From Tridacna crocea (lineage: Eukaryota > Mollusca > Bivalvia > Cardiida > Cardiidae), in assembly GCA_943736015.1 (NCBI GenBank), contig OX031069.1, forward strand, positions 18,233,235 to 18,297,234: 64,000 nucleotides of DNA, in the 5' to 3' direction. Below, one piece after another: positions 681-47,112 of this stretch (positions are counted from its first letter, which is position 1; each line of letters starts with the position of its first letter). The notes under the pieces were generated by a model. It was not told where the DNA came from. It did no database searches and saw only the letters and a list, made by a program, of their open reading frames with translations. Made by a program: the position numbers and the translations under genes.

Positions 681-703
681 ATTACCAAAATAATGTTGAA
701 AGT

Positions 704-8720: not shown

Positions 8721-9180
8721 TCAAAGAAATTAAGTAGGACAACATGTCTAGATAAACATGATGGCTTCTTAGAATTGGAAAAAGGAAAAGGCCTACTTGC
8801 AGCAAAAAGTAAACAATTTGGTAGTTATAGTTCAAGCATATTTTATACTACTTATTATTTCATGCTTTCCAGTAGGATATCGAGAAATAGCAGTGAAAAT
8901 AGTTTTCGACCTTACACAGGTACCACCAGTGAAAATACCGATTTTATGTTCTTGTTGCCTAGGTAAATTGCGTGTGCCTGACAACCAGATGGGAAATATG
9001 ACATCATTTACCATACAATTCTCGTGCTTGACATAATATTGTAGTGTGTTGCTATGCGGGAGGGGTACGCCACGGGGAATAATGGAAAAGAACTGTACTA
9101 GATTTTGATAAAGCTCCTCCCAGAGAGGGTTAAAAGCATGAAATAAATAGAATATTTGTTTTTTTTTTGGTGAATGATAG
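8721..9180. other. No feature recognised
   Basis: Overlapping 60-80-residue frames occur on both strands near 8775-9036, but none has a bounded exon or a recognisable motif. Confidence 0.45.
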
Positions 9181-9281
9181 AAATTTATTTCATCTCGAGA
9201 ACACCATCTGTAATATTTTCACTCGTGGCTGTGCCACATGTGAAACTATTACAGATGGTGTTCACCCGATGAAATAAATTT
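9181..9281. mobile_element. Palindromic MITE with AAATTTATTTCAT ends
   Basis: The arms AAATTTATTTCAT...AACACCATCTGTAATA and their inverse meet around a short loop at about 9223-9239, forming a near-complete hairpin. A degenerate copy lies at about 35950-36043. Confidence 0.75.
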
Positions 9282-9419
9282 TGATCTCTCTAAGGAAAAA
9301 ACAAATATCCTCTATTTCACACCATTTTAAAGTATGGATATTATTGATAATATCTGACAATATATTACCATACTATTACCAAAGTTGCAAAAGTTACAGA
9401 AAAAAATATTTGTATATTG

Positions 9420-9649
9420 TTAACCCTTTACCAAACGACGAAATTATAGACTGGTCCAAATTGAAAGCACTTGCAGAGGACAAAACAAATGTAATTCAAA
9501 AAATTGAAATTTGTTTCTAGCAGGGTAGAAAACCTTGTGGGAAAGGGAGAAAATGCTGGTTAACAGCATTTTCTCCTTTTCCTACAATGTTTTCTAAAGG
9601 CTTCCATCTCAGGGTAATAAAAACCAAGGATTGTTTGGTAAAGGGTTAA
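9420..9649. mobile_element. TTAA-flanked palindromic MITE
   Basis: It starts TTAACCCTTTACCAAACGA and ends TTGTTTGGTAAAGGGTTAA. The centre is a hairpin built on GAGAAAATGCTG and its inverse CAGCATTTTCTC. TTAA flanks both ends. One of the cleanest copies in the window. Confidence 0.85.
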
Positions 9650-9997
9650 ACATATTTAGAAGGATGATAGGGTACTGTTATTTAGGGTGAGTGATATGTA
9701 AAGTTTGATGATGGGTACTACTGATCAGAATTGTCTCATATATTTAACATTCTATTGCTATCTACTGGCAAACATACTTGTATATCTGTGGCATTCTGTT
9801 TAAGTACTACTTTGTAAAGGGCAGTTGAAAAAGGAGGTTCCTACATGGTTTGTCGTAATGTTTAGGACTTTTATTCCATACATAGTTCAGACAGCTGCCG
9901 TTTGATTTGCAATTTCAAACTTTTGTAGTTATTTAGAGTTGACCTATTACAGTGCTGACAGCACTTTGATTTAATATACCATCTTGGTTCTTTTCAG

Positions 9998-10039
9998 ACA
10001 ATGAGCTGATAACTGCTGAAATTATGGCTGAGGAACTAG
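9998..10039 (+). CDS. Exon 1 of the CARD-HEPN gene, with the probable start codon
   Basis: A 42-bp exon lies between CTTTTCAG and GTAATTC. The ATG at 10024 has A at -3 and G at +4 and gives M-A-E-E-L plus one base, which joins in phase with exon 2 to make Asp. Frame +1 of the exon has no stop upstream of this ATG within the exon, so an earlier start in an unseen 5' exon is possible. The acceptor in front shows that at least one upstream non-coding or coding exon exists. I chose 10024 because it places the methionine five residues before the CARD, as is common. Confidence 0.65.
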
Positions 10040-13000
10040 GTAATTCATACAGAGGCCATTTCTCTGCCCCCTCTCAATCTTTCTCTGATATAGAATAAGA
10101 AAAAACAAAAATGTTAAATGTTTGTGTATCAGTGTTAACAATATTTTCATCAATATTTTTCAATAATATTTCAGCTATCACCTGTCTGTGCTTTCCTGGA
10201 GTTTCTTTCACAAGTACTTCATACACTATTCTTATTATACAACTGGCTACTTTTCTACTAAACCTAATTAATCCTAAACTGAGCTCTAATTAAAGACCTT
10301 TTTCAGACAGATCAAGATCAGACAGCACAGAACATGCAGTCTGACAAAGGTCACTCGGCAGAATCTTAGAAAAAACTTGTGTGAGCTCTAGAGGCAAATG
10401 CTTTCAATTTGGAAAGCCTATAATTTTGTCATTTGGTAAGAGTTAAGCTTAATTTTTCCTAGATGACTTTACTGGAGTGAGCACTTTGGGGCCAATGGCT
10501 CCCTTTTTTTTTGAGGGGGGGGGAAAGTTATTATTTTTTACTCATTCAGACTACAGTAGAGTATTGAGAAGGTGTATTTCCCGCCTGAAGGAAGATTTGG
10601 AACCAGAGTCTATCCTTGATCAGTTTACAGAGTGTGACTTTCTGTCATCAACTACCATTAGAGATATAAGGGTATTTTGTAGGCTTTGTGCCTTTTGAAA
10701 TTTATTAGTTCTTGAAATAACATATATGTGATAGATACTTTGGACAATCCTGACAAAATATTTTGTACGACACGACCAAATGACCACCAATTTTAGGCTC
10801 AAAAGGACCACTATTTTCAGTGACCAATCTACTTTTGTTATAATTCACATATACGTGGAAAAACCAGGGCCAGTAATTCTCCAAGATTTTCTAAATTTGA
10901 AATTAAAGCAACTTCTGATTGGCTAAACCATTTGGAGACCAAGAACCTTCTTAAGAATGGTTGGTGAATATTGGCCCAGTTGTGACATATCCTAATGAAA
11001 ATATCATGTAGCAAATACAGAATTAACACATTTACATGTCTAACTGTTGATAACCCTATGTCAATTGTGTCAGCAGTGCAGAACCATGTCATTATGACCA
11101 TCAAAACCTTGTATCAGCTTGCTTGTAGACATGTTAACCCTTTACTCCATAGATACTCATTTCTACACATTGCTTGTAGGAGCCTTTGGAAAACATTGTG
11201 GTAAAAGGTGAAATTGCTCGTGACGAGCAATTTCACCTTTTGCCACAATGTTTTCAATGCTATCAAAAGGTGTCATATACACATAAGAAACAGCTTTATC
11301 CTTGCTGTTATTTAGGGTCAATTAGAGATACCATAGAAATGCCTTATGGGGTAAAGAGTTAAAGGATAGAAAACTACCTTAATTAATTCTTGTTTTTTTC
11401 TCTGAATGGAATAAAACTACCGGTATGTTCTATTACCACTACATGAAATGGATTGCATGATCAATAGTTCAGTTATATATACACTACAAATCAAGTTTGT
11501 TCTTCACCAACAAATCAATCTGACAGCCAACTGTTCCTTAGTTCATTGAGTCTTTTATAATAGCTTATGTATACATTTACACAATATTTGGCTATTTCCT
11601 AAGTTCCTTGCCATGAATTCCACAGTTATTCAGTAATTTGTGGAAAAGGTCCTGATGATGAGATTATTTCGTGACTTCTTTGATCTACTTTTGATTTCGT
11701 TTTTTCACTAACAGAAATTGTCATTGGTCCTTTGTAAAGTGTTTAAATTGATAAAGAGTTGTCTTGATACTCTATAATGGCAGCATTTTCTTTGAGTATA
11801 GAATAAATATATTGAAAGAATGAAATTTAAAATTATTGAATTGCAACCTCTTTAACCCTAAGACTGTAGTCTGGCTTAATGATCCCTTATTTTTAACTTA
11901 CCTTTATTTTATCCAAGTTTGAAAATGCTGTGAGCAATGTAGGGCCGCCATGGCCTTGTGTCTCCATTTAAATTTAGGTCAAATGATTAACATATATTTA
12001 GAAGGTTAGAAAGCATTCTAGGAAATGGAGAAAATGCATTGTGTCCATTTCTCACAATGCTTTTAAAGGTGTCCTTGATTATTATGCTTGACATTTTCTT
12101 CAACAGTGATTATAATTATGGTAGTGAATGGAAAACCTTCTTTTTCTGGAATTTCAGGAACTCTCTACAACCACAAAAAAGAACGAAGCAATTGTCAACG
12201 GAGTTCTAACAAAAGGTATTAAAGGATATAAACAGTTTAAAAGATTACTCCGCAAAAGTTACCAGGCACACTTGGCAGATGTTCTAGAAAGGATGGAGAA
12301 GGAAGTTCAGAAGGATCAGCAGTCAAAATCTGGTGGGTAAATCTCATTTTCTTAGAAGTTCCTCTCCCTTGTTTTAACAGCATTTTTTCAAAGATAATAT
12401 TTGGAGAATAATAACTTCAGATTGGATGGTGTTGATCCAAGATCAGGGCCTGTATTTGCAACCAATTCTTAAGAATGTTCTTAGTCTTGTTCTCCAGAAT
12501 TCTTTACATTTGTTAGTAACACAATTTCTGATTGGCTAAATCATTCAGAATGAATGGTTCTGCCAGTCAGAGGTTGAGTTACTTACAAATTTAGAAAATT
12601 TTGCAGAAAAAGACCAAGAATATTCTCAAGACTGGTTTGTGAATACAGTTCCCGACTGCACATTCAGTGCAGTCTGATCTTGATCGACACTGTCCACAAG
12701 AGCTCATTGATTGTTGTTGTATTGTTGTATTGGGGTTTAACGCCACTTTAACAGCTATGGTCATATTATTGCGGTCAGTGATGCACATGTGTTTCCTGGC
12801 TTTCTGATACCAGTACTAACACAACTTTCTTTCCAAAGCCACCAACTACTTTTCTCACATGCTTCAGCAGAGGTGAGAGGCAAAAATACGCTGGAAAGAA
12901 AGTTCGCCTCAACCAGGTACCGATCTCACAACCACCAGGTTATGAATCCGACTTGCTCACCACTGAGCCACCCGGGCAGGCAAAAGAGCTCATTGAGTCA

Positions 13001-16000
13001 AGCCTAGCAGCCTAAGGGTTAAAATGAAATTGTAACTTAATCTTATCATCACTCAAAGCTTGTAGCACGGTAACTTCAGCTTCCTCAGATATGTTATGAG
13101 GGAGTAACAGTAGTAAATTACAGGGTCTGTATTCACCACCCATTCTTAAGAACATTCTTTGTCTTGTTCTTCAAGATTTTCTAAATGTGAAAGTAATAGA
13201 AATTCCGATTGGCTAAACTAAATGGTTTAGCCAATCAGAAGTTCTGTCACTTTCACAGTGACAAAGGTCATAGGACTAAGAATCTTCTTTAGAATGATTG
13301 GTGAATACAAACCCAGGACATTTTGCTCTAAAACTGAATGTAGTGCCAGCTTATATGAACAGTGGTTATACACTTTCATTTTGAACAAATTAAAGGGATG
13401 CTGGTGCCAAGAAGTGCTTTGTTTTCAGTGAAAATTTTAAGTAAAAAAAGGGACATAACTCTCAAAAATACTTCGATAGTTGCCTGCCCTTTGATAGGGT
13501 CCCCTTTTGCTCATCAACAGCTTTTCAAAGTTTGAAGTAAATATCTTCAGTAATAATAGAGATACTGGAAAATGTTGAAGGTTTTGCACAATGGTGACGT
13601 AAACATTGACATCAGCGCAATGGAAATAATCCATTGTTTTCTCAGAAAATGGCCAAGCTGAAAATACTAGCTCAAATTGAATGCCTGTACGCACCATATA
13701 GTTCAATATGGCTTAACCCTTTACCAAACAACAATATTTTAGACTGGTTCAAATTGAAAGCACTTGCAGACGACAAAATTAACATAACTCAAAAATTGAA
13801 ATTTGTTTCCAGCAGGGTAGAAAACATTGTGGGAAAAGGAGAAAAATTCTCCTTTTCCCGCAATGTTTTCAAAAGGCTTCTATCTCAGGGTCTTTGATAC
13901 CAGGGATTGTTTGGTAAAGGGTTAAATGATGAAATATTTCTTGAGAAGGGCACAAGTCCTTATAGGAGAGGAGAGTAGACTGTGTACTCGTTGCCAGTAT
14001 TTTGTTTTCTACAAAATATTTTTTTCAGCCATCTTCCTCAGGGTTGTACAACCACAGGATTGTTTTTGAAGGGCATATGAAAATCTATTTTGAACATGGT
14101 TTATGAGATGAGCATTCTTTTATTTTTTATCCCCCGACGTAGGCGTTGTCCGTCCGTGTGTCCGTCCCGGCAAATATCTCCAATACCATTGGATGGAATT
14201 TCGTGAAACTTTATACACATGTACAATGACCCATTTTCCCGAGACACTTTTTAGCTCACCTGAGCACAAAGTGCTCATGGTGAGCTATTGTGTCAGATCG
14301 TGCTGTGTCCGTCGTCTGTCGTCAATTTTTTACCTTGTGTACGCTCTAGAGGCCACATTTTCGGTCCGATACTCATAAAAAATTGTTCAGGATGTTTGCC
14401 TCGATGAATTCGCAGACAAGTTCGAAAATGGGTCATGTCGGGTCAAAAATTAGGTCCCTAGGTCAAATCTTAGAAAAAAACCTTGTGTACGCTCTAGAGG
14501 CCACATTTTCTGTCGGATACTCATGAAAATTGGTCAGGATGTTTGCCTGGATAATATCTGGGACGACTGTGAAAATGGGTGATGTGGGGGCAAAATCTAG
14601 GTCACTAGGTCAAATTTTAGAAAAACGTTGTGTACGCTCCAGAGGCCACATTTTCAGTCGGATACTCATGAAAATTGGTCAGGATGTTTGCCTGGATGAT
14701 ATCTCCGACGAAACTGAAAATGGGTTATGTCAGGTCAAAAACTAGGTCACTAGGTCAAATCTTAGAAAAACCTTGTGTGCGCTCTAGAGGCCACATTTTC
14801 AGTCCAAAACTCATGGAAGTTCTTCAGAATGTTTGTCTTGATAATATCTCGGACAAGTTTGAAAATGGGTCATGTCGGGTCAAAAACTAGGTCACTATGT
14901 CAAATTTTAGAAAAACCTTGTGTACGCTCTAGAGGCCACATTTTCAGTCCGATATTCATGAAAATTGGTCAGGATGTTTGCCTGAATGATAACTTGGAAG
15001 AGTTTGAAAATGGGTCACGTCGGGTCAAAAACTAGGTCACTAGGTCAAATCTTAGAAAAACCTTGTGTACGCTCTAGAGGCCACATTTTCAGTCCAAAAC
15101 TCTTGAAATTTGGTCAGAATGTTTGGCTTGATGATACTCTGACAAGTCTGAAAATGGTTCATCTCGGGTCAAAAACAAGGTCACTAGGTCAAATCTAAGA
15201 AAAACCTTGTATATGCTCTAAAAGGCCACATTTCCGTCCGATACTCATGAAAGTTGGTCAGGATGTTGGCCTCGATGAAATCTAGGATAAGTTTGAAAAT
15301 GGGTCATGCCAGGTCAGAAACTAGATCACTGGGTCAAATCTTAGAAAAACCTTGTGTAAGATCAAAAGGCCACATTTTCAGTCGGATACTCATGAAAATT
15401 GGTCAGGATGTATGCCTGGATGATATCGAAAATGGGTCATGTGGGGTCAAAAACTAGATCACTATGTCAAATTTTAGAAAAACCTTGTGTACGCTCTAGA
15501 GGCCACATTTTTAGTCCAAAACTCTTGAAAGTTGGTCAGAATGTTTGTCTTGATATATCTCAGACATGTTCAAAAATGGGTCATGTGGGATTAAAAACTA
15601 GGTCACTAGGTCAAATCTTAGAAAAATCTTTTGTACGCTCTAGAGGCCACATTTTCTGTCCAAAACTCTTGAAAGTTAGTCAGAATATTTGCCTTTATGA
15701 TAACTTGGACGAGTTTGAAAATGGGTCATGTGGAGTCAAAAACTAGGTCACTAGGTCAAATGTTAGAGAAACCTTTTGCAGGCTCTAGAGGCCACATTTT
15801 CAGTCCAAAACTCATGAAAATTGGTCAGAATGTTTGCCTTGATGGATATATTAGACGAGTTTGAAAATGGGTCATTGGGCGTTAGAAACTAGGTCACCAG
15901 GTCAAATCTTAGAAAAACCTTGTATATGCTCTGGATGCCACATTTTCAGTCCAACACTCTTGAAAATTAGTCAGAATGTTTGCCTTTAAAATATCTTGGA

Positions 16001-19000
16001 TGAGTTTGAAAATGGGTCATGTTGGATCAAAAACTGGGTCTATAGGTCAAATGTTATAAACACCTTTTGTATGCTCTAGAGGCTACATTTTCTGCCTGAT
16101 ACTCTTCAGACTTGGTCAGAATGTTTGTTTTGGTGATGTCTAAAAAGAGTTTGATAATGGGTAATTGTCGGGTCCAAAACTTGGTCACTTGGTGAAATCT
16201 AAGAAAAACCTTTCGTACGCTGTAGAGGCCACATTTTCAGTCCCTTACTCATGAAACTTGGTCAGAATGTTTATCTTATTGATATCTCAAAAGTGTTTGA
16301 TAATGGGTAATGTCTGATAAAAAACTAGGTCACTGGGAAACTAGGTGGTTCATGTTTGGTCAATAGACTCAGGTGAGCGATGTCAGGGCCATCATGGCCC
16401 TCTTGCTTTTTTTTTTTTTTTATTTGATTCAAAATGGCCGACTGAGAGCGATTTTAAGTTTCACTTAAGTTGCACTTAAGTACACTTTTCATGTTTGGAG
16501 TCTTATCTTCAAAACTATACAAAGTTTTTACATTGAAATTGTCACATCTGTCAATTTCCATTAGGAAATGCAGGAAAAAAAGTTTCACATACATTGACCG
16601 TGCAACACCACTGTTATTTGCCCTTGTTTTTGTAATAAGGTGTCATGGAAAAAGGGGGTTTCCTGTTGTGTTTCATTCTATTTCTTGTGAAGGCTACTTC
16701 TTCCATATTTCTTGACGGAATTGAATAGAATTTTGAGAGAATATTTCTTGTCATGTGGCCTATTGCATATTATAAATGTTTTGCGATTTGTAGCTGCATC
16801 ATGAAAAAAGGGGGCTTCATATTTTCATTTTATTCCTTGTGAATGCAACTCATCCCATATTTCTTGACAGAATTGAAAAAAAAAATCACAGAATATTTCT
16901 CTTCATCTGACCTATCGCATATTCTCAAGGTTTTTCCATAACAGGATTATACATTAAGTCCTCTTTTTCCAGAACTTGGCATTTCATTAAATGAAAACAA
17001 AGTGAAGAAAACATACACCAAACCCCATTTTTCCATGAAACCTCATTCTCGTATATATAAAGAAAAAAATTGTATTAATGGACTATCCAATGGAATACAT
17101 GCATGAAGTTTCATCAATTTTCGTCAAGCGCTTTAGAAGATATCCCTCTGGGCGGACGGATGGGCAAATAGAATGTTATTGGTGTATAATGAAATTATAC
17201 ATTTAGCCCCCTTCTTTCTTGACGTGGCATTTCATGAAATAAAAAAGTGTCTGTAGCTTGTGATAACCTACAAATGAAGTTTAATAACATTTTGTCCAGT
17301 GGTTAAAGATTTGTCCAGTGGTTAAAGAGATACCGGTCCATAATGAAAATATACGTCAAGCCCACTTTTTGCACGACATGACATTTAATGAAAAAAGGTA
17401 AAATAACGATATTGGCGGACTTTCATAAGGAACACACGTATGAAGTTTCATAAATTTCGTGTAAGATCTTGAGTTAAAAAGACACTGGTCCCTAACTGAA
17501 ATGTACATGAAGCCCCCAATTCATATGACACCTTATTGAATATCAAAACAGCAAAAACTAGAGTGCCGTCGTCACAATGTACGCCGCCACGTTGCTGCCA
17601 TTTCCAGCAGCTAGCGAGAGACTTAAGTGTTGGAATTTCTAGCACCTGCCTGGATTGCTCAATGGATATATGGTGTTACTTGTGATCTAAAGGGTTTACA
17701 AACAGACTGATGGATGGACAGACTGATGAACGGCCTTGATCATCCAATAAGATATGAAGTTTTATGAAAATTTATCCATAAGTTGGAGACACATTGATGA
17801 AAAATTAAATTTGACATAAAGCTCCCTTTTTCCATGATACAGCGATAAATTGCAAAATCCTGACAACATGTGCTGGGTCACGGGACCTGTGAAAATCTCA
17901 TCCAAATTTGTTGAGATATGTCCAGTAATTAAAGAGATTGGTGAAAAATGAAATGTAAAAGGAAGCCCCTTATTCCATGACGCAACTACAAATCCCAAAA
18001 CCTTGACCGTATGCGATAGGTCACATAACGGGAAACATTCTGTGAAAATTTTATCCAAATCCGTCTTAAAATTTGGAATGAATTACGTTCACAAGAAATG
18101 GAATGAAATATAACATGAAGCCCCGTTTTCCATGACAACACATTACAAAAACAAGGGTATATAACTGTGGTGTTGTAAGGTAAATCTGGGTTAAACTTTT
18201 TTCCTGCATTTCTTAATGGTGGTTGATAGATGTGACAAGTTCAATGTAAAAAAAACTCTAGTTTTCAAGATAAGACTCAAAACAAAAAATGTAGTCGACC
18301 GCATATGCATCAAATGAAAAAAAAAGCAAACAAAAAACTTGTCTCGGCAGAATGGGTTATTCTACTCATGTATAAAGTTTCACGAAATTCGTCCAATGGC
18401 ATTGAAAATATTTACCCGAACAAACGGACGGAAGGAGGGAGGGAGGGACGGACGGACAACGCTAAAACTACATTCCTCTGCCTTCGGCGGGGGATAAAAA
18501 CCAAAGAAAATACTGGGAACGTACCTATACTTTATCATTAATATCGGAAACATGAATCGTAAGAATGGTCTCTAGAACTGACTGATTGAAAAGACCAGAT
18601 ATTGAGGCATGGTAAAAACCGGAATGGACCATCAGAGGCCCCTGTTTCTTAATCAGAAACATCAAATATCGGACGAAGGAATCGTAAGAATAAACATGAA
18701 TTCAATTGACGATACTTGATATGGAATATGGAAATATCGTTAAGGATCGGAACTCACCCCAAAAACCCTGCCTTTGGACTTTAAAAACAAGGGGAACATC
18801 GGGACTGGACCGAATTCTGGACAGAAATAAAAAAAAAAATCGGCAAAAAATTAAGCATCATAAGAATGAAGCAGTAATAAATTGAAACAAGAGGGCCAAG
18901 ATGGCCCTGGATCGCTCACCTGAAGTTTTGGGGACCATAGCTATTTTCTTCTTTTTTTTCTGAGGTCTTGAAACACTGGAAACAAAATCATTATTTTGCC

Positions 19001-28000: not shown

Positions 28001-31000
28001 CCCTGCTCTTCTGCTTGATGAGAACTTTCCACCTGAGAATATTCATGTTTATACATGTAATAGTTTTTGAGTTATACGCTAAACAGAATTTAAGAAAATA
28101 ATAAATGGCAATAACTCCTACATTATGCAATCAAGAGTTACGGATTTTATGCACTGCACTTCTCCTTGACAAGCTCTATCCATCTGTGAAGGATCATGTT
28201 TACACCTCTGATAGTTTTTGAGTTAATTTAAGCGAGAAAAATAAAGGGCAATAACTCTTAAATTATGCAACCAAGAGTTATGGTTCTTATCCACTGCACT
28301 TTTCCTTGATAAGATCTATGCATCTGTGAAGTTTGGTATTTATCCCTCAACTAGTTTTTGTGTTATGCTCTAGACAAGATTTAAGTGTAATAACTCTCAA
28401 ATTATGAAATCAAGAGTTGTGGTTCTTATCCACTACACTTTTCCTTGATAAGATCTATTCATTTGAGTTTTATGTTTTTCCCTCAAACAGTTTTTGTGTT
28501 ATGCTCTGGACAAAATTTATGTGAGAAAAATAATAAAGGGCAATAACTCCTTAATTTTGCAATCAATAGTTATGGTTCTTATGCACTGCTTTTCTCTTCG
28601 ATGAGATCTATCCATCTGTGAAGTCGCATGTTTATACCTCAAATAGTTTTTGTGTTACGCTCCAGACAAGAAGGTGGGATGCAAGAAGGGGCATAGGGAA
28701 TGAAAAAAAAAAACGGACGGACATACAGACGGACAGATGGGTACTATTTTCATATCCCTAGCCGCTTTTTTGGCAGGGGATAATTAGAATGTATGCTACT
28801 TTATAAATGAAAACTGACACGGCATGAACCATATATATAGAGGAGTATGAAGATTCTTAATTGTTGTTCATTATATTAACAGATAATGGCATTTTCTCAA
28901 TTTTACTGATATGTTGCCATTTTGGCTGCCATGGTAACCTGGAGTGTGATATGAAATGCTCATTGTAATTTTTTTCATCAACAAAACATTAGATTAATAG
29001 CTATTCCTAAAACCAAAGTTAATAACTTTACTTACTCTAGTCTCTACAGTTATGCTTTGAAAATGAGCAAAAATTGCAGTTGTGCTCCAATGTCGACAGT
29101 TAGGTTGGCATGGAAACTAAACTGAGACACAAAACCAAAGTAGCTTGTGTGCAGCTTTTCATATTTGCATTGATGCTTCATATGACATATTAACTGATGT
29201 CTTCATATTTGTGTTTAGTGGTCATTTTATTGCATAAAACAGGGCATATTCCAAATTTTACAAATGTGTTTCCACTTCGGTTGCGATGGTTTCCTGAACT
29301 AAAAACATTTTGACCCTTTTTCATTTTTATTTGTGACCCAATACATTAGTCTGTATGTGCAATACTGAAACCTTGAATCCTGGCTTTGCTGTTAGGAGAT
29401 AATTGGGAGATAGATCTGTCAATTTAAGCCACCAGCAGAGATGCCAAACACGGCCATTGTTTGTTGCCATAGAAACACATTCTGCAAGCTTATTTTTGCT
29501 TTTGCATTCTTGATATTAAAAGCCAATATATCGGTGATTATGTTATAGTAGCAAAACTTACTGGACTTTTGGCGACAAACATGTTGTATTAACTTCAAAG
29601 TGCATAACTGTTCAAGTTTTAAAAGGAGAAAATCATGCTTCTGGGGGGCAAAACTTTCTGTGGCCAAAAACTTTCTGTGGCCGTTACCATAGTAACAGCA
29701 TGACAATAAAAGTTTCCCTTTGGTTTTTGTGTAAAGGAATCAATTGCGCTAACTTTTTTTGCTATTCTGAAAAAGTCACTTATCACCATTTCTACAGGGC
29801 CTGTGTAATGCAGAGAAGTAACCGTACAAAATGACCCATGGGTCATTTCTCTACGTAGAGGAATGACCCGGGTCATTATTCTTTGTACAGAATGATCCCA
29901 GAGGGTCATTTCTCTAAGTAGAATAATGATCCGGGTCATTCCTCTACGGGTCATTTCTCTAAGTAGAATGATGACCCGGGTCATTCTTCTACGTAGAGAA
30001 ATTACTTCTGGGGTCATTTCTCTATGTAGAATAATGACCCGGGTAATTTTAGGTGTACTTCAGTAAATAATGCCCTGATTGTCTATTGAAGGGCTAGGTT
30101 TCGTAGTGATTTGTGAAAAACACTGTCTCCCGAAGATATTTTGGAGATTCGGGCTCTGTGAAACCGAAGGGAATAACTTGTAATTTATAGTAGCTTATTT
30201 ATAGTAGCTTTTAATTTTTGAAAAGACAATTTTCTGGTAAAGAGTTGATTTTATATTGATAAAACAAGACTTGTTGGATTGTATTTCAATGTAATTGAAA
30301 GGAATTGCTAAATACAGACTAATTATGTATGTAATTAATTACATTACAATTACTTACAATTGACAAAATGCTTAATCACCAATTACACACAATAACTTCA
30401 AAAAATGTATTTAATCACAGTCAAATACGATTACTTGTTTTCAGTTACCAAAGGCCTGCTTTATTTAAGATAAGAAGGTTGGAACTTTACTTGTCATTTT
30501 TCATTTAATTATGATGCGTAATTCTAAATTGATTTTTCAGCGACATTGGCTATTGCCGAACATTATTTGAACAATCCAAGACCTGGAAACTGGGTGAAAA
30601 CTATTCTGGCATTGAAAATCACTTCAGAAGTACTGAAGGATTACGTATATAAAGAAATGCACATCTTACAGAGGTTAATTAAAGCAAAATGTCCACTTGG
30701 AAGTGTATGCTATTCATGCAATGCGATGACCGCGCCAAGGTGTCCAGAAAATGTTTGTAACATCTACCTATATGAAATTTCAAAGTATCACCGAAGCCGT
30801 CCATCCTTCAAGAATACAGACCCCAAGAAGTGGACAACTGATGCTTGGGAAATTGCAAAATGTTTTACAACGGAAACAGCAGGCTACAGGAATTGCACGC
30901 TATTGGATGCAGACTTTTCTATGGTCATCAGCGTCATCATCAACTGCAGACATTTTGATAATGTCGTCTCATGTAGCATGAAAGGTCACAGGAATAAATT

Positions 31001-34000
31001 TTGTGAGGTATGTAGAATTTTAATTTTCGTTTAATTGCATAACCATTGACGAAGAGTCTGAGATTCCTAAATTGAGAATATATTTTGTATTGTAATTGCA
31101 TGGCTGATGAAATATTTAAAGACAAAGAGAAATAAAAGAGTCATAAGGAAAATAAACCTCTCACTTTAATCCAGCGCACAATTTTTAAATGATAGGCTTT
31201 TGCCTTAATGGACTGAACCGTCGTGCTCTAGGTCTAATTATTACAGCCATAGAGTTATTTAGCAATATAACAAAGGACTATGAAAGTTGTTATATGTGAT
31301 GAAAGAAGTCTATTTACAGAATTCTTTAGAATTAGAATTTAGTGGGTTCGGGTCTTTTTTAAGTAGTTGCAATTGGGTGTTAATAAAAAGGCTGTAAAAA
31401 CACAAGTGCCGATCGGCTAAGAAAGTGCCTGAAACAGCAAATATTCGTCGTGTTCTCGCTTATACATTTTATCTAAACGCTGGTAGATATTGAGCTGCCT
31501 TTTAGCGTGTAAATCATTCACATGGGCTACAGATCGAGTTCGAGTTTCATTCCGGTTCACTGATTTTTGGTGAAATTACGGGCCTTGGACTTCGAAAATT
31601 TCACCGAAAATTAGTTTTCCAGACTTTTTTTCCCTAGACGCTGGTAGATAATGAGCTAATTCTTGGTTTGCAAGTTGAGTACCATGAGTTACGGATCAAG
31701 TTCGAGTTCCATTCCGGTCCATTGATTTTTGACGAAATTACAGGCCTTGGACTTGGAAATTTTCACGAAAAAAAGAAAAACAGTTTGCTGGACTTTTTTT
31801 CTAAACGCTGGTAGATATTGAGCTGGTTTTTGGTTTTCTAGTCAACCACCAAGAGTTACAGATCAAGTTCGAGTTTCCGGACTTTTTTTTCTCTAAATAC
31901 TGGCATATATTGAGCTGATTTTTGTTGTGAAAGTCAACCTCTGTGAGTTACAGACCAGGTTCGAGTTTCTTTTCGGTCCATTGATTTTCGAAGAAATTAC
32001 TCACCTTAGACCAAGAAATTTTCAGAGAAAAAACAATTTTCCGGACTTTCCCAAACACTGGCAGATAATGAGCTGATTTTTTAGTGTGTAAGCCATTCAC
32101 ATGAGTTACGGATCAAGTTTAAGTTTCGTTACGGTCAACTGAATTTTGACGAAATTACGGGCCGTAGACTAAAAATTTTTCACGGACAAAACAGTTTACC
32201 GGACTTTTTCTCTAAACGATGGTAGATTTTGAGCAGCGTTTTGGTGTTCAAGTCAATCACCATTAGTTGCAGATCAAGTTGGAGTTTCATTCCGCTCCAC
32301 TGATTTTTGACGAAATCGCGGGCCTCGGCCTTAGAATTTTTGACAGAAAAAATTAGTTGTAGAGTCTTATTTTCGAAACGCTGGCAGATTTTGAGCTGAT
32401 CTTTGTAGTGTAAGCCAACCACTGTGAGTTACATATCAAGTTTGAGTTTCATTGTCGTCCACTGATTTTTGTCCTTGGGCTTGAAAACAAAAAGAAAACA
32501 GTTTTCCGGACGTTTTTTCTTAATGGTGGCAGATATTGAGCTGATTTCGGTGTGTAAGTCAACCACTGTGAGTTACAGATCAAGGTTGAGTTTTGTTCTG
32601 GTCCACTGGTCCATTTTTATCTCCACTGGCCGAAGGCCAGCGGGCTTTTGTCATGGCCTGGTGTCCGTCGTGCGTCGCGTCCGTGCGCGAGTTAACTTTT
32701 ATTTCAAATATCTTCTTCTCTCAAACTATCCATCTAATTTTGATGAAATTCACAGAAATGATCCTGCCATGGTCCTCTACAGAATTCCTTGAAAATCTCT
32801 GGTTGCCATGGCAACAACACTGAAAAATTTTTATTATTTTTTTTAATCTTCTTCTCTGAAACCATAAGGCTTAGGGCTACCAAATTTGGCATGTAGCTTT
32901 ATCTAGTAGACCTCTACAAAGTTCCTTCAAATAATAGCCCTGGGGTCAAAATTGGCCCCGCCTCGAGGGTCACAAGTTTTATATGGGCTTATATGGGGAA
33001 AACTTTAAAATTCGCCTGGTACCTAGACATAGGGCCTAGGGCTACCAAATTTGGCATGTATCTTTATGAAGTGGTAGTCTACCAAGAGTATCCAAAATGT
33101 AGCCCTGGGGTCAAATTTGGCCCAGCTCCGGGGTTCACAAGTTTTATATGGGCTTATATAGGGAAAACCTAAACAATCTTCTCGTACCAAGCCATAAGGC
33201 CTAGGGCTTGTCAATTTTGCATCTAGCTTTATCAAGTGGTTGTCTACCAAAGGTGCCCACATTATGGCCCTAGGATTAAATTTGGCCCCGTCCTGGTGTC
33301 ACAAGTTTTACATGGGCTCATACTGGGAAATCCTTAAGTTTGAAACCAATTGGCAAAATAGTGTAATGTATGGCTCGTTGTGTTTTTACTTATTAGCCAG
33401 TGGAGCGATACATGGCCATCATGGCCCTATAGTTTAAGAAATCACGGGCCTTGGACTTAGAAAATTTGACAGAAAAACAATTTTCCAGGCTTTTTTACGT
33501 ACAATGCACACGTTTGGTAAGTAGGTACCTGTCATTGATACCGATCTTTTGTGGGTTATATGTCCAAGGTCAAGGTAAAAAGTTTTAACCCTTGCCATGA
33601 ACACTTTTCAAAGTAATTTCTATGTTTATACAGGTATTTATTTACGTAAGTTATAACACTTACATGTGGTAATCTGGTACCTCTCATTGTTACAAACCTG
33701 CTGATGATAAGGTCAAGGTCATCTCACAAGGTAAAGGGTCATATTTCTGAAAAGTTGGTTTTACCAGGGCATTTGTGTTTCACAAACACATCTTGTCATA
33801 GTAAAATTTCTTCCATGAATTTACTTTAATTTAACCCCCCCCCCCCACACACACACACGCAAATATATATGGCTTTTATTAAAGCATTGCGTACAAAGAT
33901 AGACACGGTGCTTAAAATTCTGAAAGGGGGTCAAATACGTTCTTTCTCTTCCACAGAGTTTCACAAACTATACCTACCAATGATATATACGGCTGGTGCT

Positions 34001-37000
34001 TGTTTCTTTTCAGGCAAGGGCTTTGAGAAACAGGTTGATGCACTCCGAGAGTCTTGCAGTAAGTGAAATTGAAATGTCAAAAAATCTTGACCTATTGATC
34101 AAACTATTGATGTGTTTCAAAGACGAACATGTAAAGAATTTAGCAGCACAGGATGAAATTAAAAAGGTAAACCACCTTCTTTGCATATCATTTCACATTG
34201 AAATCTTCCATTGCTATATCATCTTGGAATATGTTAAAATTTGCATTTTAAAACCAACAAGTAATACACTTTTGTTTATGTAAATTTCAAGGGGTAGCGT
34301 GCCATTTGTCAATTATACAATGAACAGTTTTCGGAAGACTTAAAATGGTAAAGTTAAAACGTTTTTATTTTTTTTACGTCGAAGACTTTCTTCATTGTAC
34401 ATCATTGTCCACAAAATATTTCCAAAAGAGCGGTTTTTTCTGTGAAAACTTTGGAAGCGACAAACAAGTATTTCTTCCGAATTAACGTATCTGTAATAGT
34501 ATTTTTCATAGTGTGAGTTGTCTAAAGGTAGCCTTGATATTTTTTTCAAGTTGATGACAACGGAGCTTATTGTTACGCAGCAAGACGTCCTATATGCACG
34601 AAAAGAGGCTGTCTGTTATAATTTGAAAGAAATCAATGAAAGCAAAAAGGAAATCACACACTGGTTCGACATTTGGAACTCGGGGGTTGAAGAGAAAAAA
34701 GCAATCTGGACAGGTATTTTAACAATTAAGCTTTAGGCTGTACAAACTAACTTGATAAAAGGATGCATTATAACCGCTTGAAACAGTTTTTTTTTTCAAT
34801 TTTAATGACAATCTCACGATTAGCGAAATAATTTTCTATTTTCTAGAGTACATAATTTAATTATTTAGGAGAAAATGAACTGATTGAATCTCACTTTATG
34901 ACCCCTGAATTTGCTGTCCTATCATTTTATGTCGAAAAAGACGAAAATACATTTCTCGGCATATGTATTGTAGGTAACAAATATAGACACATACGTTCTG
35001 ACAATTCACCTGCTTCAAATGATCTCTTTTTGTTTTGATCTCTCCAGCAGCTCGAGATGATATACATGATAGACAAATTGATAAACTTGCTTAATAATTT
35101 GTAAGCTATAATTAACTTATCTTTGAGACACTGGGTTTCTACAATATACAAAATGAGACAAATTTAGAGATTTTTCGAGATGATACATTTACAGACAAAA
35201 AGGTTTTGTTTCAAAGCCAGTGTCACTCATTCTAATGCGGAATAATTGAAACTTCCCACATGGAAAAAAGAGATAACCAGATGTTTATTCCATTCATTTG
35301 GTAATCTTTCAGAAAATAGTTTTGGATGATGAGGTTTGATAATTCATGTTTATCACAAGTGGAATTAACCGATTTCATAGTAACCAGCACGGAACTAAAT
35401 ACATTCTTGGTCAATATTTAGAATTTCACCCTTTCAAACGCATTGCATCTTTTTCAGAAAGTGATTTATAACATGCAATAAAGAAAAACAACAACAACAA
35501 AAACAAAACTTTTTTTCAAAATATTTATTTACCCCGTAAAATTGATGACTTTGAGTTTTGTTGATTTGTTTTTTCAGTCCGAATGTAAATAAATAGTGGA
35601 CACTAATGGCTCTAGTGCTGCAGGATAAACATGTATTTGGTAATCGTAGAATGCAAAGATAAACGAAAGTCATTTCGAAAAAAAAAAAAGATTTTCCCTT
35701 TTTCTAAATAATTTATGGTACATGATTTCCTCGGAAATAGATTAAAACACATTTGTCATAATTTTAGTCTATACCAACTATTTACTTCCTTTAACTGGTC
35801 AGCACAGTCTTATTGTAATGCGTTCTTAACGAGGGAGGGGGTGTGGGGCGTGCCACCAAAAACTCCTGCACTTGATTTTGATGAAAGTCCCTACAAAATA
35901 CGGTATAGAAGCATGATTTTTTTTCCGCTTAAGGATTGAAATTAATTATGCCCCGTGAACACCACTGGTAACATGTTCACTTGTGCCTGTACCACTTGTG
36001 AACATATTACCGATCTTCAGTCAATGAAATAAATTTCTATCTTTTACAGAAAAAGAAAATAACTCGTATATCTCACTATTTCGGTCTTGGTAATCAGACG
36101 GCTTTTGTTAAAACTTATAAAGAGAACACATCTTTGAATTGTTGATGAATACAAACCTTGGTCTAAAATCTAGACTGCTTGAAACTTAATGTGGGATTTA
36201 TACGGAATTGGGCTAGAAATCGCAATATAATTTGGTTAACTCTTATTTGCTGAAAATTTCTCAAAAATAGTAATGATCTATATCAATGTGTCGAGATTCG
36301 TTATGATTGGTTCGCAATTGATACCAAAAATCACAGCCTACCATTTTTTTAAACTTTCCTTTGGAATAGTTAGCAATATGGAGAAGAGATTCATTTGTTT
36401 CATTTTTGGAAGCTGTGATTTTAAAAAAAATGATACTTAATTGATATTACTAGTGTTTCGTTAATGTTTAGTACTTTCTGGATATTGATCTGTAAAGATG
36501 TTTTTCACCGCTTTTAGCAGTACTTGAGTTAACATTTCGTGGTACTAACACCCCTATTGATGCTTATATGCAGACTGCACAAATTTTCTACAAATATCTA
36601 AATGTCAAACTCTTGTTTTAAACTCCACTGAACGAAGGCTATAGTGAGCTTATTTCATGACGCTTTGTCCACCTTCAGTGCATGGGTTAACTTTTTATTT
36701 CAAACATCTATTCTGATACTATCAAACCATTTTCTACCAAATTTTACAGAAGTGATTCTACTATTGTCCTTTTTATAATTTCTTCAAAAAATTCAATTCT
36801 GGTTATGACAGGAAAATGTTAAAAAAAATCTTATGTAAAACCACAATTTGGAGTTCTCCAGAAATTAGCTGTAATGGACCTTTTGTTGGACTTCTTTCAG
36901 ATACTTGAGATAAAGTTAATCTGGAGAAGAACACTACTGTTAGGTGTGGGTAAATTATAGTCGAAAAGAACACTACTGTTGGGTGTGGATAAATTATAGT

Positions 37001-38070
37001 TGATTTCAAGCTATAGTTAAGCGTATATATATTTGAACAGGGAAATGTCTCTCTTTTTTTTACAGAAAGTTTGAGTACCGTTAATCCTTCGTGATAATCG
37101 TTTTACACTAATCATTGTTAGTATGCATATAAAAGTTTTCTAACTTAATAAAAACGCTATCATTGATATTGATTTATTTTGACAATAATAAAAAAAGGTA
37201 TGTTATCAGTGATAATGATTTATTTTGATAACAGTGGTCATAATCAGGTGTGTCAAATTGTGTCATTACGCTATTGAAATAGAATGAAAAATAAACATTT
37301 TCTGCTGAATACTAATGCCAAAATTCATTGATGTTTGGTTTGAATGATTCTTTATTGTACCTGCTTTTATTCATCGCCATCATATTGTCGTATGAAAATG
37401 ATCCGAGGTTTTTTGGGTGAAGCTTATTTTTCTGAATGAAATATCATTTAGTACAAATTTCTTACAGTTTTGTAACTGGCAATGCCAAGTACCTGCTCGG
37501 CATATTTAAAAGTATTGGATAGTGGAGCAATACACGACTTTCATGACGCTTGAAATTTTTACTTTTCAGATCAGCAACACAGAATTATTTCTAACTTTTA
37601 TAAAGGCTGCAAACATTCTTTAATCAAACTTGTGGAGAGTGAAATTGAAAGAACAAAACCTGAGAAATACCCACAAGAAAAGTGGAATACAGATACATTC
37701 TTAAGCAGACTTGGTCTGTTCATAAACGTAAAGTCTCTTCCAGAAATACATAAAGGCTTACTGTTTCCAGAAGACGGCAGTCGATCAGATATAAACGAGT
37801 GGGATGTATTTCTACTCTGCCGAATTCTTATAGGAACAAGCGGCGACCAGGTAGAGTACGTGCGGGCATTACGGCGCAGCAGAGACACAATCCTAAATAA
37901 TCCTGATGCTATTAAGGAATATGATCTTAAAGAAATATGCGGCCAAGTGAAAGAACCGCTTAAAACTGAACTTATACGTATATTTGCTGGCGAAGATATC
38001 ACAGACGATGCACCACAACTTCAACATTTGCTGAAATGTTGGCAACTGTATGAAACGCACATGTTAAGAG
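10024..38070 (+). CDS. CARD - CXorf38-like HEPN - DZIP3-like HEPN protein (3' end not found)
   Basis: Seven exons join with matching phases at all six junctions and give 532 residues plus one base. Residues 6-88 form a CARD. Residues 105-330 resemble the CXorf38/DUF4559 family and include R265-N266-x3-H270, the R-x4-6-H type motif of HEPN ribonucleases. Residues 366-532 resemble the DZIP3-type HEPN domain (LFP, a WDVFLLCRIL helix, then a helix with R470-D471 but N475 where H is expected). CARD domains form homotypic signalling assemblies and many HEPN proteins cut RNA, so a CARD-gated RNase or scaffold in innate immunity is a reasonable inference, not a demonstrated role. No signal peptide or membrane segment is seen, so it is probably cytosolic. 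A strong donor at 38071 means more exons follow. Sure of the exons; less sure of the start and of the second HEPN assignment. Confidence 0.8.
10040..10549 (+). other. Intron 1, with SINE and MITE fragments
   Basis: It is a phase-1 intron. It contains a minus-oriented SINE body fragment at about 10150-10245 (CTTTCCTGGAGT, shared with 39.97 kb) and the right end of a TTAA MITE at about 10392-10446 (GTCATTTGGTAAGAGTTAA). Confidence 0.65.
10550..10671 (+). CDS. Exon 2: N-terminal half of the CARD
   Basis: The exon lies between TCATTCAG and GTATTTTG. It encodes residues 6-46, starting D-Y-S-R-V-L-R-R. The pattern of a basic first helix (VLRRCISRLKEDL), then ESILDQF, then DFLSSTTIRDI reproduces CARD helices 1-3 as in caspase-recruitment domains of RAIDD and IAP-type proteins. 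It enters in phase 1 and leaves in phase 0, which matches its neighbours. No cysteine cluster or zinc motif is present. Confidence 0.85.
10672..12157 (+). other. Intron 2 with several MITE copies
   Basis: A phase-0 intron of 1486 bp. It holds a fragment of the CCAAT-palindrome MITE (about 10863-10985), a TTAA MITE (11134-11362) and a decayed TTAA MITE (about 11985-12090). The stretch 11363-11980 shows nothing I can name. Confidence 0.7.
11134..11362. mobile_element. TTAA-flanked MITE, variant ends
   Basis: The ends are TTAACCCTTTACTCCAT and a TATGGGGTAAAGAGTTAA inverse. The core hairpin GAAATTGCTCGTGACGAGCA is nearly perfect and its stem extends through AAGGTGAAATT. It differs in its core from the GAGAAAATGCTG subfamily but matches the core of the copy at 47335-47562. 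Confidence 0.8.
12158..12332 (+). CDS. Exon 3: C-terminal half of the CARD and a linker
   Basis: The exon lies between GGAATTTCAG and GTGGGTAA and encodes residues 47-104. ELSTTTKKNEAIV followed by KGIKGYKQFKRLL and AHLADVLERM reproduces CARD helices 4-6 (the usual G-x-x-A/Y-F-x-x-F/L pattern followed by HLA-x-x-L). It is followed by a charged linker rich in Glu, Lys and Gln. Two donors are possible: GT at 12333 (phase 1) or at 12337 (phase 2). Only the first fits the phase of exon 4 and it is used here. Confidence 0.85.
12443..12655. mobile_element. Palindromic MITE with GATTGGCTAAA core, decayed
   Basis: The ends CAGGGCCTGTATTTGCAACC and GGTTTGTGAATACAG are inverted relatives. The interior has TTCTTAAGAATGTTCTTAG and TTCTGATTGGCTAAAT. 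Same family as 13117-13320 and 20485-20668. Confidence 0.7.
12705..12980 (-). repeat. tRNA-derived SINE, minus orientation
   Basis: On the minus strand the head carries the A-box-like GGTGGCTCAGTGGTGAG near 12955-12975. The 3' end of the element appears on the plus strand as GGGGTTTAACGCCACTTTAA near 12730. Flanking TTGTTGTATTGTTGTA is the simple tail. Frames through it, such as 12789-13007, are not genes. Confidence 0.7.
13117..13320. mobile_element. Palindromic MITE with inverted CCAAT core
   Basis: It runs from CAGGGTCTGTATTCACCACC to GGTGAATACAAACCCAGG. The centre GATTGGCTAAACTAAATGG and its inverse TTTAGCCAATC form a hairpin with two opposed CCAAT boxes. Confidence 0.8.
13321..13712. 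other. No feature recognised
   Basis: Unique-looking intronic sequence; no bounded exon on either strand. Confidence 0.4.
13713..13925. mobile_element. TTAA-flanked palindromic MITE
   Basis: TTAACCCTTTACCAAACAAC at the left and TTGTTTGGTAAAGGGTTAA at the right, with the core GGAGAAAAATTCTCCTTTTC as a tight hairpin. Nearly identical in its ends to 9420-9649. Confidence 0.85.
14128..18497. repeat. Foldback element with TATCCCCCG ends, interrupted by a Helentron-like insertion
   Basis: The left arm starts TATCCCCCGACG and contains a GTCCGTCCGTG-rich stretch, then CCATTGGATGGAATTTCG. The right arm at 18360-18497 is its inverse (CGAAATTCGTCCAATGG, GGACGGACGGAC, CGGCGGGGGATA). Between them are degenerate units with CATGGAAAAAGGGGG and CTTGTGAATGCAAC, in one orientation at 16640-16950 and in the other at 17800-18150. 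A separate element occupies 14253-16405. Partial relatives lie at 23064-25118 and 59500-60393. Confidence 0.7.
14253..16405 (+). mobile_element. Helentron-like element with 14 tandem units of about 145 bp
   Basis: The left end is AGCTCACCTGAGCAC with an adjoining hairpin (GTGCTCATGGTGAGCT). The right end is GGTGAGCGATGTCAGGGCC followed by the hairpin GGGCCATCATGGCCC and CTCTTG. The core has 14 units marked by GAGGCCACATTTTCAGTC at about 14351, 14499, 14643, 14788, 14935, 15078, 15221, 15367, 15502, 15645, 15790, 15936, 16080 and 16224. It is inserted in a T run of the surrounding foldback element without a visible target duplication. No protein is encoded; frames of 60-115 residues are the repeat unit read in all three frames. 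Confidence 0.75.
18498..18887. other. Repeat flank, not identified
   Basis: It contains dispersed GGAATGGACC and CATAAGAATGA motifs that recur at 21780-21930 on the other side of the next element, so it is probably one older repeat split by that insertion. No gene is seen. Confidence 0.45.
19906..20215. repeat. GC-rich palindrome with four direct repeat units
   Basis: The outer arms TTGTACGGTCAGGTGGCAGG and their inverse CCACCTGACCGTACAA close the structure. Inside, a unit of about 60 bp, containing CTCGGGGCGACATGATTAAC and GTGAACAAGTTTCCAAG, occurs once inverted and four times direct. A short version consisting of the outer arms alone lies at 43250-43305. Confidence 0.85.
20485..20668. mobile_element. 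Near-perfect palindromic MITE with inverted CCAAT boxes
   Basis: CAGGGCCCGTATTCACCAAC at the left and GTTGGTGAATACGGGCCCTG at the right are exact inverses. The centre is GATTGGCTAAACC and GGTTTAGCCAATC. The best-preserved member of the family in the window. Confidence 0.9.
21739..22276. other. Repeat flank and unassigned sequence
   Basis: It continues the repeat seen at 18498-18887 to about 21950. A piece near 22000-22045 (CACAGAGCATGGCTCATTTA) belongs to the repeat also seen at 53740 and 55615. No gene. Confidence 0.45.
22277..22494. mobile_element. TTAA-flanked MITE
   Basis: TTAAAACTTTATCGAACAAT on the left is decayed. The right end TTGTTTGGTAAAGAGTTAA is good. The core carries GGAAATGCTGGTAACCAG and TATTTTCTCC. 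Confidence 0.75.
22495..23063. other. No gene; tRNA-like scrap near 22985
   Basis: The segment near 22985-23020 (GCATAAGTGGTAAAACG, GGACTCGTAAACGTCAAG) resembles a tRNA-derived SINE head but lacks a usable B box. Otherwise nothing is seen apart from a T run at 22907. Confidence 0.4.
23064..25118. repeat. Second copy of the foldback element, left part only, with nested insertion
   Basis: It starts TATCCCCCGCCGAAGGCGG and runs like 14128-18497. It is interrupted by 23444-24693 and continues with TGTCATGGAAAAAGGGGG to about 25118, where the similarity stops before any right arm. Confidence 0.7.
23444..24693 (+). mobile_element. Helentron-like element with about 165-bp units
   Basis: It begins AGCTCACCTGAGCAC and ends GTGAGCGATCCAGTGCC...GGCCCTCTTG. 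Five units are marked by CTGGTGAATGGGGGCTAC near 23811, 23971, 24142, 24310 and 24472. An uninterrupted relative of the insertion site at about 16625-16650 (CCCTTGTTTTTGTAATAAGG) shows that it entered between two T bases without duplicating them. Confidence 0.8.
25119..26095. repeat. Degenerate array of about 170-bp units with GTTACCATGGCAAC
   Basis: GTTACCATGGCAAC or a close variant recurs near 25380, 25557, 25735 and 25903. The intervening sequence shows further similarity (GATCCACATCTGTT). No gene. Confidence 0.65.
26096..26940. repeat. Tandem array related to that at 7.86-8.52 kb
   Basis: About five units of 150-160 bp are marked by GTTTGTTTA and CATTGATTTTGAAAA. The entry sequence TGAAATTCAGCAAAGCTTTT is shared with position 7840, so both belong to one element family. 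Confidence 0.7.
26941..27389. other. No feature recognised
   Basis: Intronic AT-rich sequence; no bounded exon. Confidence 0.4.
27390..28790. repeat. Element with about eight units of about 150 bp
   Basis: Units are marked by GGGCAATAACTCCTAAATTA, then GTTTTTGAGTTATGCTC, at about 27486, 27644, 27799, 27955, 28107, 28246, 28387 and 28539. The right end has a GGACGGACATACAGACGGAC stretch and GCAGGGGATAATTAG, like other elements of this class. Confidence 0.75.
28791..29814. repeat. Degenerate units with TTGCCATGGTAACC
   Basis: Related GCCATGGTAACC or GCCATAGAAACC boxes recur near 28930, 29110, 29290, 29465 and 29685, with a local duplication of AAAACTTTCTGTGGCC at 29650-29680. No gene. Confidence 0.5.
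29815..30050. repeat. Array of nested short palindromes (ATGACCCGGGTCAT, CTACGTAG)
   Basis: The palindrome AATGACCCGGGTCATT and variants alternate with TCTCTACGTAGA or TCTCTAAGTAGAA over about 230 bp, in about five units. The minus-strand frame 29619-30017 through it gives a repetitive Arg/Met/Thr peptide that has no independent support. Confidence 0.85.
30051..30540. other. Intron end before exon 4
   Basis: A run of ATTACAATTAC and GTAATTAATTACATTAC motifs lies at 30290-30430. The acceptor TGATTTTTCAG ends at 30540. Nothing else is seen. Confidence 0.5.
30541..31007 (+). CDS. Exon 4: N-terminal part of the CXorf38-like domain
   Basis: The exon is 467 bp between GATTTTTCAG and GTATGTAG and encodes residues 105-260. 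GNWVKTILALKI near the start and, later, KKWTTDAWEIAKCF match the order and key residues of the CXorf38 family (N-W-V-K; W-x2-D-A-W-E-x-A-K-x-F), followed by a VISVIINCRHF helix. A cysteine set C-x2-C-x7-C-x4-C (GSVCYSC to ENVC) lies between them, as a similar cysteine group does in that family. Phase 1 in, phase 0 out. The family function is not known to me; similarity is judged from memory and needs a profile search. Confidence 0.87.
31440..33490. repeat. Array of about 155-bp units, split by an insertion
   Basis: Units are marked by GCTGGTAGATATTGAGCTG and GTGAGTTACAGATCAAGTT at about 31480, 31637, 31806, 31901 (short), 32057, 32219, 32380 and 32526. The last unit breaks at about 32611 and resumes at about 33433 with AAGAAATCACGGGCCTTGG. 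Confidence 0.75.
32612..33432. mobile_element. Array-type element with CCACTGGCC and GGCCATCATGGCCC hairpins
   Basis: The left end has CCACTGGCCGAAGGCCAG followed by a GTCCGTCGTGCGTCG stretch. The right end has GCCAGTGGAGCGATACATGG and the hairpin GGCCATCATGGCCC. The core has three units of about 150 bp with GGCCTAGGGCTACCAAATTT. It resembles the AGCTCACC-ended elements in plan but not in unit sequence. A decayed copy lies at 36620-37556. Confidence 0.7.
33835..33861. repeat. C homopolymer and CA microsatellite
   Basis: A run of 13 C bases is followed directly by an (AC)n stretch. Confidence 0.9.
34014..34166 (+). CDS. Exon 5: HEPN-type motif of the CXorf38-like domain
   Basis: The exon is 153 bp (51 codons), phase 0 at both ends, between TCTTTTCAG and GTAAACC. 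It begins A-R-A-L and then R265-N266-R-L-M-H270-S, the RN-x3-H form of the HEPN R-x4-6-H motif and the counterpart of R-N-E-I-M-H in human CXorf38. The rest is an amphipathic helix ending in DEIKK. In active HEPN RNases the Arg and His sit at the dimer interface and are needed for cutting; both are intact here. Activity is not shown by the sequence. Confidence 0.85.
34167..34550 (+). other. Intron 5
   Basis: A 384-bp phase-0 intron with no repeat that I recognise; it ends ATTTTTTTCAAG. Confidence 0.75.
34551..34713 (+). CDS. Exon 6: helical continuation
   Basis: 163 bp between TTTTTTCAAG and GTATTTTA, residues 312-365 plus one base. The sequence is Glu/Lys-rich and predicted helical (KEINESKKEITHWFDIW), probably the C-terminal helices of the HEPN domain or a linker to the next one. 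Phase 0 in, phase 1 out. The AAG acceptor is slightly weaker than the others, hence the lower confidence. Confidence 0.75.
35950..36043. mobile_element. Degenerate palindromic MITE
   Basis: CCGTGAACACCACTGGTAAC and its inverse GTGAACATATTACC surround a loop, and ATGAAATAAATTTCT closes the right end. Relative of 9181-9281. Confidence 0.6.
36620..37556. repeat. Decayed copy of the 32612-33432 element
   Basis: CTCCACTGAACGAAGGCTAT at the left and AGTGGAGCAATACACGACTT at the right match its ends; the first 150 bp inside also match (GGGTTAACTTTTTATTTCAA). The middle, 36850-37480, has diverged or been replaced. A short direct repeat of AGAACACTACTGTTGGGTGT lies at 36929-36986. Confidence 0.5.
37570..38070 (+). 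CDS. Exon 7: second HEPN-like (DZIP3-type) domain
   Basis: 501 bp between ACTTTTCAG and GTAAGTTT, residues 366-532, phase 1 at both ends. The order W-x-x-D-T-F-L-S-R-L, then LLFPEDG, then NEWDVFLLCRILI, then YVRALRRSRDTILN follows the DZIP3-like HEPN pattern (LFP, an F-D-I-x-L-L helix, then the R-N-x-x-x-H helix). Here the last motif is R470-D471-x3-N475, so the catalytic His and Asn are replaced and a non-catalytic role such as dimerisation is likely. After it comes a further helix pair (LKTELIRIFAGED and LQHLLKCWQLYETH). Without splicing, translation would stop at 38103-38105. The domain name is a moderate call; the exon is a firm one. Confidence 0.85.
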
Positions 38071-47100: not shown

Positions 47101-47112
47101 AACCCAAAAAAA

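Follow-up and report, generated by a model that had tools for sequence, protein, structure and literature searches.

Introduction

RNases of the HEPN fold work as dimers, and dimerisation is also what activates RNase L and Ire1. Both of these enzymes are named as KEN-type HEPN proteins in the survey of Anantharaman et al. (2013; PMC3710099), in which the CXorf38 family was placed among the Swt1-like HEPNs, with an inserted Zn ribbon, and was called active. Table 1 of that survey lists CXorf38 with dsRBD, NACHT, ankyrin, CARD and DEATH modules and the DZIP3 HEPN with CARD, NACHT, DEATH and other modules, and the same work proposed that modules of the DEATH and NACHT type are coupled to CXorf38 HEPNs. 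Related combinations have been reported in several invertebrates. The DUF4559 domain, which defines the CXorf38 family in Pfam (PF15112), is present in 45 of 99 NACHT genes of Corbicula fluminea (PMC8298618), and large arrays of NACHT and DZIP3-HEPN genes occur in the pearl oyster, where the Rx4-6H motif is kept in 194 of 202 DZIP3-type domains (PMC9646362). NACHT proteins carrying DZIP3-like HEPN domains have been found in cnidarians and Aplysia (PMC8260672, PMC9334734), and TRADD-N proteins with HEPN RNases in bivalves (PMC8195603). In the text of a 2025 characterisation of human CXorf38, a word search finds neither HEPN nor RNase (PMC12196990).

This study concerns a stretch of 64,000 nucleotides of the bivalve Tridacna crocea (hereafter the window), lying on the chromosome designated C14. 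The initial annotation of this DNA described a CARD joined to a CXorf38-like and a DZIP3-like domain in an order thought to be undescribed. That novelty applies in part: the principle of death-fold-coupled CXorf38 HEPNs had been published in 2013 (PMC3710099), while a CXorf38 HEPN paired with a DZIP3-like pseudo-HEPN in one chain was not found described in the open-licence literature (word search).

Results

The seven exons proposed initially, all on the forward strand, have GT/AG borders and compatible phases, and their joined frame of 532 amino acids contains no stop. The features of the locus are as follows.

Exon 1: 10024..10039, + strand, 16 nt, with the proposed start codon and donor gtaatt
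Exon 2: 10550..10671, + strand, first half of the CARD, three copies on the same chromosome
Exon 3: 12158..12332, + strand, second half of the CARD, donor gtgggt; if the donor is not used, an in-frame TAA follows at 12338-12340
CARD-CXorf38 interval: 12333..30540, + strand, 18.2 kb, of which about 6 kb (summed) are recognisable dispersed or tandem repeats
Exon 4: 30541..31007, + strand, N-terminal part of the CXorf38/DUF4559 HEPN; the ATG of the family is TTG here (30546-30548)
Exon 5: 34014..34166, + strand, RN-x3-H (RNRLMH), the predicted catalytic motif
Exon 6: 34551..34713, + strand, linker and end of the DUF4559 match
Exon 7: 37570..38070, + strand, DZIP3-like HEPN with a degenerate motif, running without a stop to a phase-1 gtaagt donor

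The seven exons fall into two blocks that do not stand equally firm: exons 4-7 are a real gene unit, whereas the join of the CARD to exon 4 is putative. The model is, to judge from its open end, incomplete: it must lack one or more 3' exons, since exon 7 runs without a stop codon to a phase-1 donor. At the other end, the exon-1 frame stays open in the upstream direction as far as an acceptor AG at 9996-9997, so that additional N-terminal coding exons may belong to the CARD and exon 1 may not be its start; no Pfam match was obtained on the + strand of positions 1-10001. Many minisatellite-like arrays were also seen in the window (14332-16334, 23698-24487, 48326-50168 and others), with periods mostly of about 140-166 bases and one of 304, and those at 14332 and 23698 sit in dispersed repeats found genome-wide.

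Matches to the exon-7 sequence number 11 across the 1.05-Gb genome, counting that of the window itself, and every one of them has a DUF4559 exon 3-46 kb upstream in the same orientation. Recurring in the same order at these 11 places, exons 4-7 are, on the genomic evidence, a real gene unit. In the nine listed pairs with dS above 0.3, exon 7 gave dN/dS values of 0.27-0.73 (ten copies compared, L064 left out; pairs with dS below 0.6 listed), so the domain is maintained, and exon 7 looks constrained. Two young pairs with few changes, each at a dS of 0.010, gave 1.78 (L056/L058) and 0.53 (L054/L055). For exon 4, pairs other than that of the window and its duplicate gave 0.41-0.64.

An ATG stands 2-5 nt past the exon-4 acceptor in nine of the 11 copies, so that the family protein probably starts there; human CXorf38 also begins at about this point. 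The two exceptions are the window, with TTG, and a copy on C2 with ACG (L030/L082, C2:73313819). Exon 4 is still open in the C2 copy, no CARD was found in the 10 kb upstream of it, and its exon 7 (L057) has a dN/dS of 0.27 against both L056 and L058.

The CXorf38-like domain was borne out by a Pfam match to DUF4559 at residues 121-346 (E 4e-20; 72.9 bits against a cut-off of 27; model positions 9-232 of 305). The R-N-x3-H motif, reported as intact, reads RNRLMH in exon 5 and is kept at 11 of the 12 exon-5 loci read, the twelfth (L080) having KN-x3-H; this count covers none of the NACHT-type copies on C7, which a narrow pattern did not pick up. Exon 4 encodes a Cys-rich stretch, C-x5-C-x2-C plus further Cys, a candidate for the Zn-binding insert. 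When the joined exons were searched against Pfam, as had been suggested, CARD and DUF4559 came out above their cut-offs, but the HEPN hit that had been expected (HEPN_Swt1, residues 197-292, E 0.0043) fell below its own. No kinase-like domain or ankyrin repeat was found in the joined protein by Pfam, and a PDB sequence search with the DUF4559 region returned no matches. Elsewhere in the genome, DUF4559 exons are interleaved, on a single strand, with eight NACHT matches at C7:7.92-8.55 Mb (L032-L042), in what are probably CXorf38-NACHT receptors arrayed in tandem.

The DZIP3-like domain ascribed to exon 7 is beyond Pfam (no family at E<=1) but was recovered by profile-profile comparison, in which it matched DZIP3-type HEPNs over 157 columns with a probability of 96.7 (E 3.9e-10), compared with 2.0 for reversed columns and 1.7 for the best of 100 column shuffles. 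The exon-7 profile was built from nine of the 11 copies, the C14 duplicate (L055) and L058, a near-twin of L056, being left out, and the comparison profile from eight of the 15 sequences of PF18738 type that this genome contains. Blocks common to both are LYP..DI..WD..LLC and L..R(N/D). The claim of two HEPN-type domains thus holds for the second at the level of the profile but not of the usual motif, which reads RD for RN in all 11 exon-7 copies. A histidine at Rx4-6 is missing in ten of the 11, the window among them, with L057 having one at Rx6. On both counts the second domain has probably lost its catalytic activity. Two DZIP3-type HEPN matches with internal stops were noticed on C7 (L015, C7:38967244; L016, C7:39056843) and are perhaps decaying members of the DZIP3-type HEPN expansion; intact ones occur elsewhere.

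A phase-1 donor of the gtaag type was recognised by eye at the end of exon 7 in ten of the 11 copies and is hard to make out in the C1 copy (L064). In L056, L058, L060 and L062 the next exon, of phase 1, looks by eye like a coiled coil, and a further match to it lies at C2:73286093. No such exon 8 was found in the window as far as 64000 or elsewhere on C14, which is weak evidence of its absence, because the exon diverges so fast that the version of one paralog pair fails to find that of the other: a query from L056 missed the L060/L062 exons, and the two versions are linked weakly (E 0.28).

The CARD of exons 1-3 was upheld by Pfam on the joined exons (residues 9-90, E 8.9e-9), PF00619 scoring 35.7 bits against a gathering cut-off of 23.9 over model positions 2-83 of 85 with exons 2 and 3 joined. 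Its nearest PDB sequence is the Caspase-9 CARD (E 0.015). A caspase prodomain was ruled out, given that none of the 29 Peptidase_C14 matches in the genome falls on chromosome C14. CARD exons of the window type were found genome-wide as six matches at three places on C14 and a weak one on C3 (E 0.036), with none near the other nine HEPN copies. A local CARD model, built with the window CARD included and scoring the window exons at 1.3e-13 and 6.2e-12, found nothing significant in the 10 kb preceding the C7 and C2 paralogs or in the 1.5 kb upstream of eight further DUF4559 loci, the best other match having an E of 0.23. Pfam scans upstream of two paralogs were also empty, which says little about a split CARD, as a scan with X at stops sees that of the window weakly (E 0.03, second half only); the same scan does detect DUF4559 in 30000-38101 (E 7.7e-17).

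One of the three C14 CARD places, at C14:17583133-17585780 (L067, L070), lies more than 337 kb from any CXorf38 exon. Between it and the window CARD there are 2.5 synonymous and 7.5 non-synonymous changes; between the window and the duplicate described below there are 3 synonymous and 1 non-synonymous.

The duplication took in the CARD as well as the HEPN exons, and the second copy lies at C14:17.92-17.94 Mb. Identity between the two is 98.5-98.9% around the CARD, 95.8% at 30018-33830 and 99.0% at 34369-44631. Exon 4 differs from that of the duplicate (L072, C14:17920001-17930000) at 31 of 467 sites, compared with 70 of 3332 in flanking non-exon DNA (Fisher p 5.5e-7), a divergence about three times that of the non-coding flank; 27 of the changed sites are non-synonymous and four synonymous. 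Differences number 7 of 153 in exon 5 (flank 4 of 202, p 0.22), 2 of 163 in exon 6 and 3 of 501 in exon 7. The catalytic, CXorf38-type half thus diverges unusually fast between two young copies. This fits diversifying selection between the two C14 copies, but gene conversion from a further copy may also account for it; the excess of non-synonymous over synonymous change in exons 4 and 5 together was not significant (p 0.40).

Discussion

The reading that we favour, at somewhat better than even confidence, is that exons 4-7 are a gene for a predicted RNase with a CXorf38 HEPN of intact motif and a degenerate DZIP3-like HEPN, the CARD being a separate neighbour or an alternative first module. 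Exons 4-7 would then be the core of a tandem-duplicated gene of innate-immunity type. The CXorf38-type domain is predicted to cut RNA once two chains meet, the degenerate HEPN would act as a dimerisation, RNA-binding or regulatory partner, and clustering would be the switch, brought about by the coiled coil in some paralogs and perhaps by the CARD here. CARD exons 1-3, duplicated along with the HEPN exons, would, on balance, belong to a neighbouring gene or form an alternative first module rather than an obligatory N-terminus.

The strongest competitor, possible although in our estimate less probable, is the true fusion envisaged by the initial annotation, in which exon 3 splices to exon 4, filaments of the CARD cluster the chains, the active HEPNs pair and RNA is cut. 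The phases of exons 3 and 4 agree and the exon-3 donor gtgggt is identical in all three CARD copies, although a phase match is expected by chance in one case out of three. Exon 3 can instead end at its own TAA; this short stop is absent from the third CARD copy, and the 2.2 kb downstream of the CARD contain a single ATTAAA but no AATAAA. That the window has lost the exon-4 ATG also favours splicing from upstream, for without an upstream coding exon the family start would be missing, but the near-identical duplicate retains that ATG. Co-duplication of the CARD and HEPN exons, with their order kept in both C14 copies, speaks for a fusion, whereas the third CARD copy has no HEPN exons and nine of the 11 family members have no adjoining CARD of the window type. 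Splicing would have to bridge 18.2 kb in the window and 64.6 kb in its duplicate, which counts against a fusion; since an intron of about 21 kb is known in the family (C12, exon 4 to exon 5), the 18 kb gap is not prohibitive. Of the 18.2-kb interval, the first 9.6 kb are collinear between the C14 copies and the rest, to 30018, is absent among the matches listed. A domain-bearing exon within the interval was ruled out on the + strand, where no Pfam family was found between the CARD and exon 4 (E<=0.01), and this too is in keeping with a fusion. Exon 4 has changed in amino-acid sequence beyond the expectation from flanking DNA for a decaying copy, and there is precedent for the combination in the CXorf38 entry with CARD in Table 1 of PMC3710099.

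Taken together, the evidence that exons 1-3 and 4-7 form one transcript is mixed, and the genome-wide distribution argues against a CARD-HEPN fusion as the normal architecture of the family. Control of the HEPN by the CARD within one chain would rest on one predicted junction. A reading of the locus as an NLR with a downstream NACHT was also tried and ruled out, as the three + frames of 38071-57862 contain no Pfam domain and the 16 NACHT matches of the genome all lie outside C14.

A variant that we consider unlikely is a recent capture, whereby the CARD was placed upstream of a two-HEPN gene and the window copy, its own start lost, came to depend on it. The product would be a new death-fold-nucleated RNase that combines an active and an inactive HEPN in a single chain, its catalytic half being under diversifying selection between two young copies. 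No exon resembling a coiled coil was found in the window copy, unlike in some paralogs.

A somewhat smaller chance still is given to the window copy being a young pseudogene or decaying duplicate, with its start lost, no 3' end found and residues common to its relatives replaced (for example MP to TT in exon 4). The change of ATG to TTG and the failure to find an exon 8 agree with decay, as does the polarisation of the 24 non-synonymous codon differences, nine looking derived in the window, five in the duplicate and ten unclear by majority among eight paralogs (some assignments rest on one or two, and L030 entered with a shortened sequence). Set against this, exon 4 outpaces its flanking DNA (31/467 against 70/3332) rather than following a neutral rate; exons 4-7 are also open with intact splice sites and RN-x3-H, to which little weight can be attached in so young a copy. 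That exon 7 is an unrelated helical domain is very improbable in view of the profile match with its clean controls and the blocks common to DZIP3-type HEPNs, even though it has no Pfam match, no match in a PDB sequence search and an all-helical single-sequence model that is too poor for a fold search (pLDDT 47.6).

On the favoured reading of exons 4-7, a family whose tandem copies link an intact HEPN motif to a pseudo-HEPN and change fast in their catalytic half offers a tractable test of the RNase activity of CXorf38-type proteins and its switching. If the CARD junction is real, two near-identical copies would document the capture of a death-fold by an RNase, and the states before and after would be directly comparable.

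With RNase L and Ire1 the locus would share the principle of dimerisation, but it has no kinase-like domain or ankyrin repeats and belongs to another HEPN branch. Caspase-9 provides the closest PDB relative of its CARD, from which it differs in that no caspase-domain match (0 of 29) lies on C14. Exon 7 is a remote relative of the DZIP3/hRUL138-like HEPN (PF18738), differing in being below Pfam detection and in having RD for RN..H. The DUF4559-NACHT genes of Corbicula have the same domain in a clam, and C7 of the present genome likewise interleaves NACHT (8 of 16 matches) with DUF4559 exons, whereas the window has neither a NACHT match on its chromosome (0 of 16) nor a Pfam domain in the + frames of 38071-57862. 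The closest described system is the CXorf38 family itself (DUF4559/PF15112; PMC3710099), from which the locus differs by a second, degenerate DZIP3-like HEPN, a pairing unmentioned in the survey's treatment of that family, and with which it shares DUF4559, RN-x3-H, the Cys-rich stretch of exon 4 and, in this genome, tandem copies.
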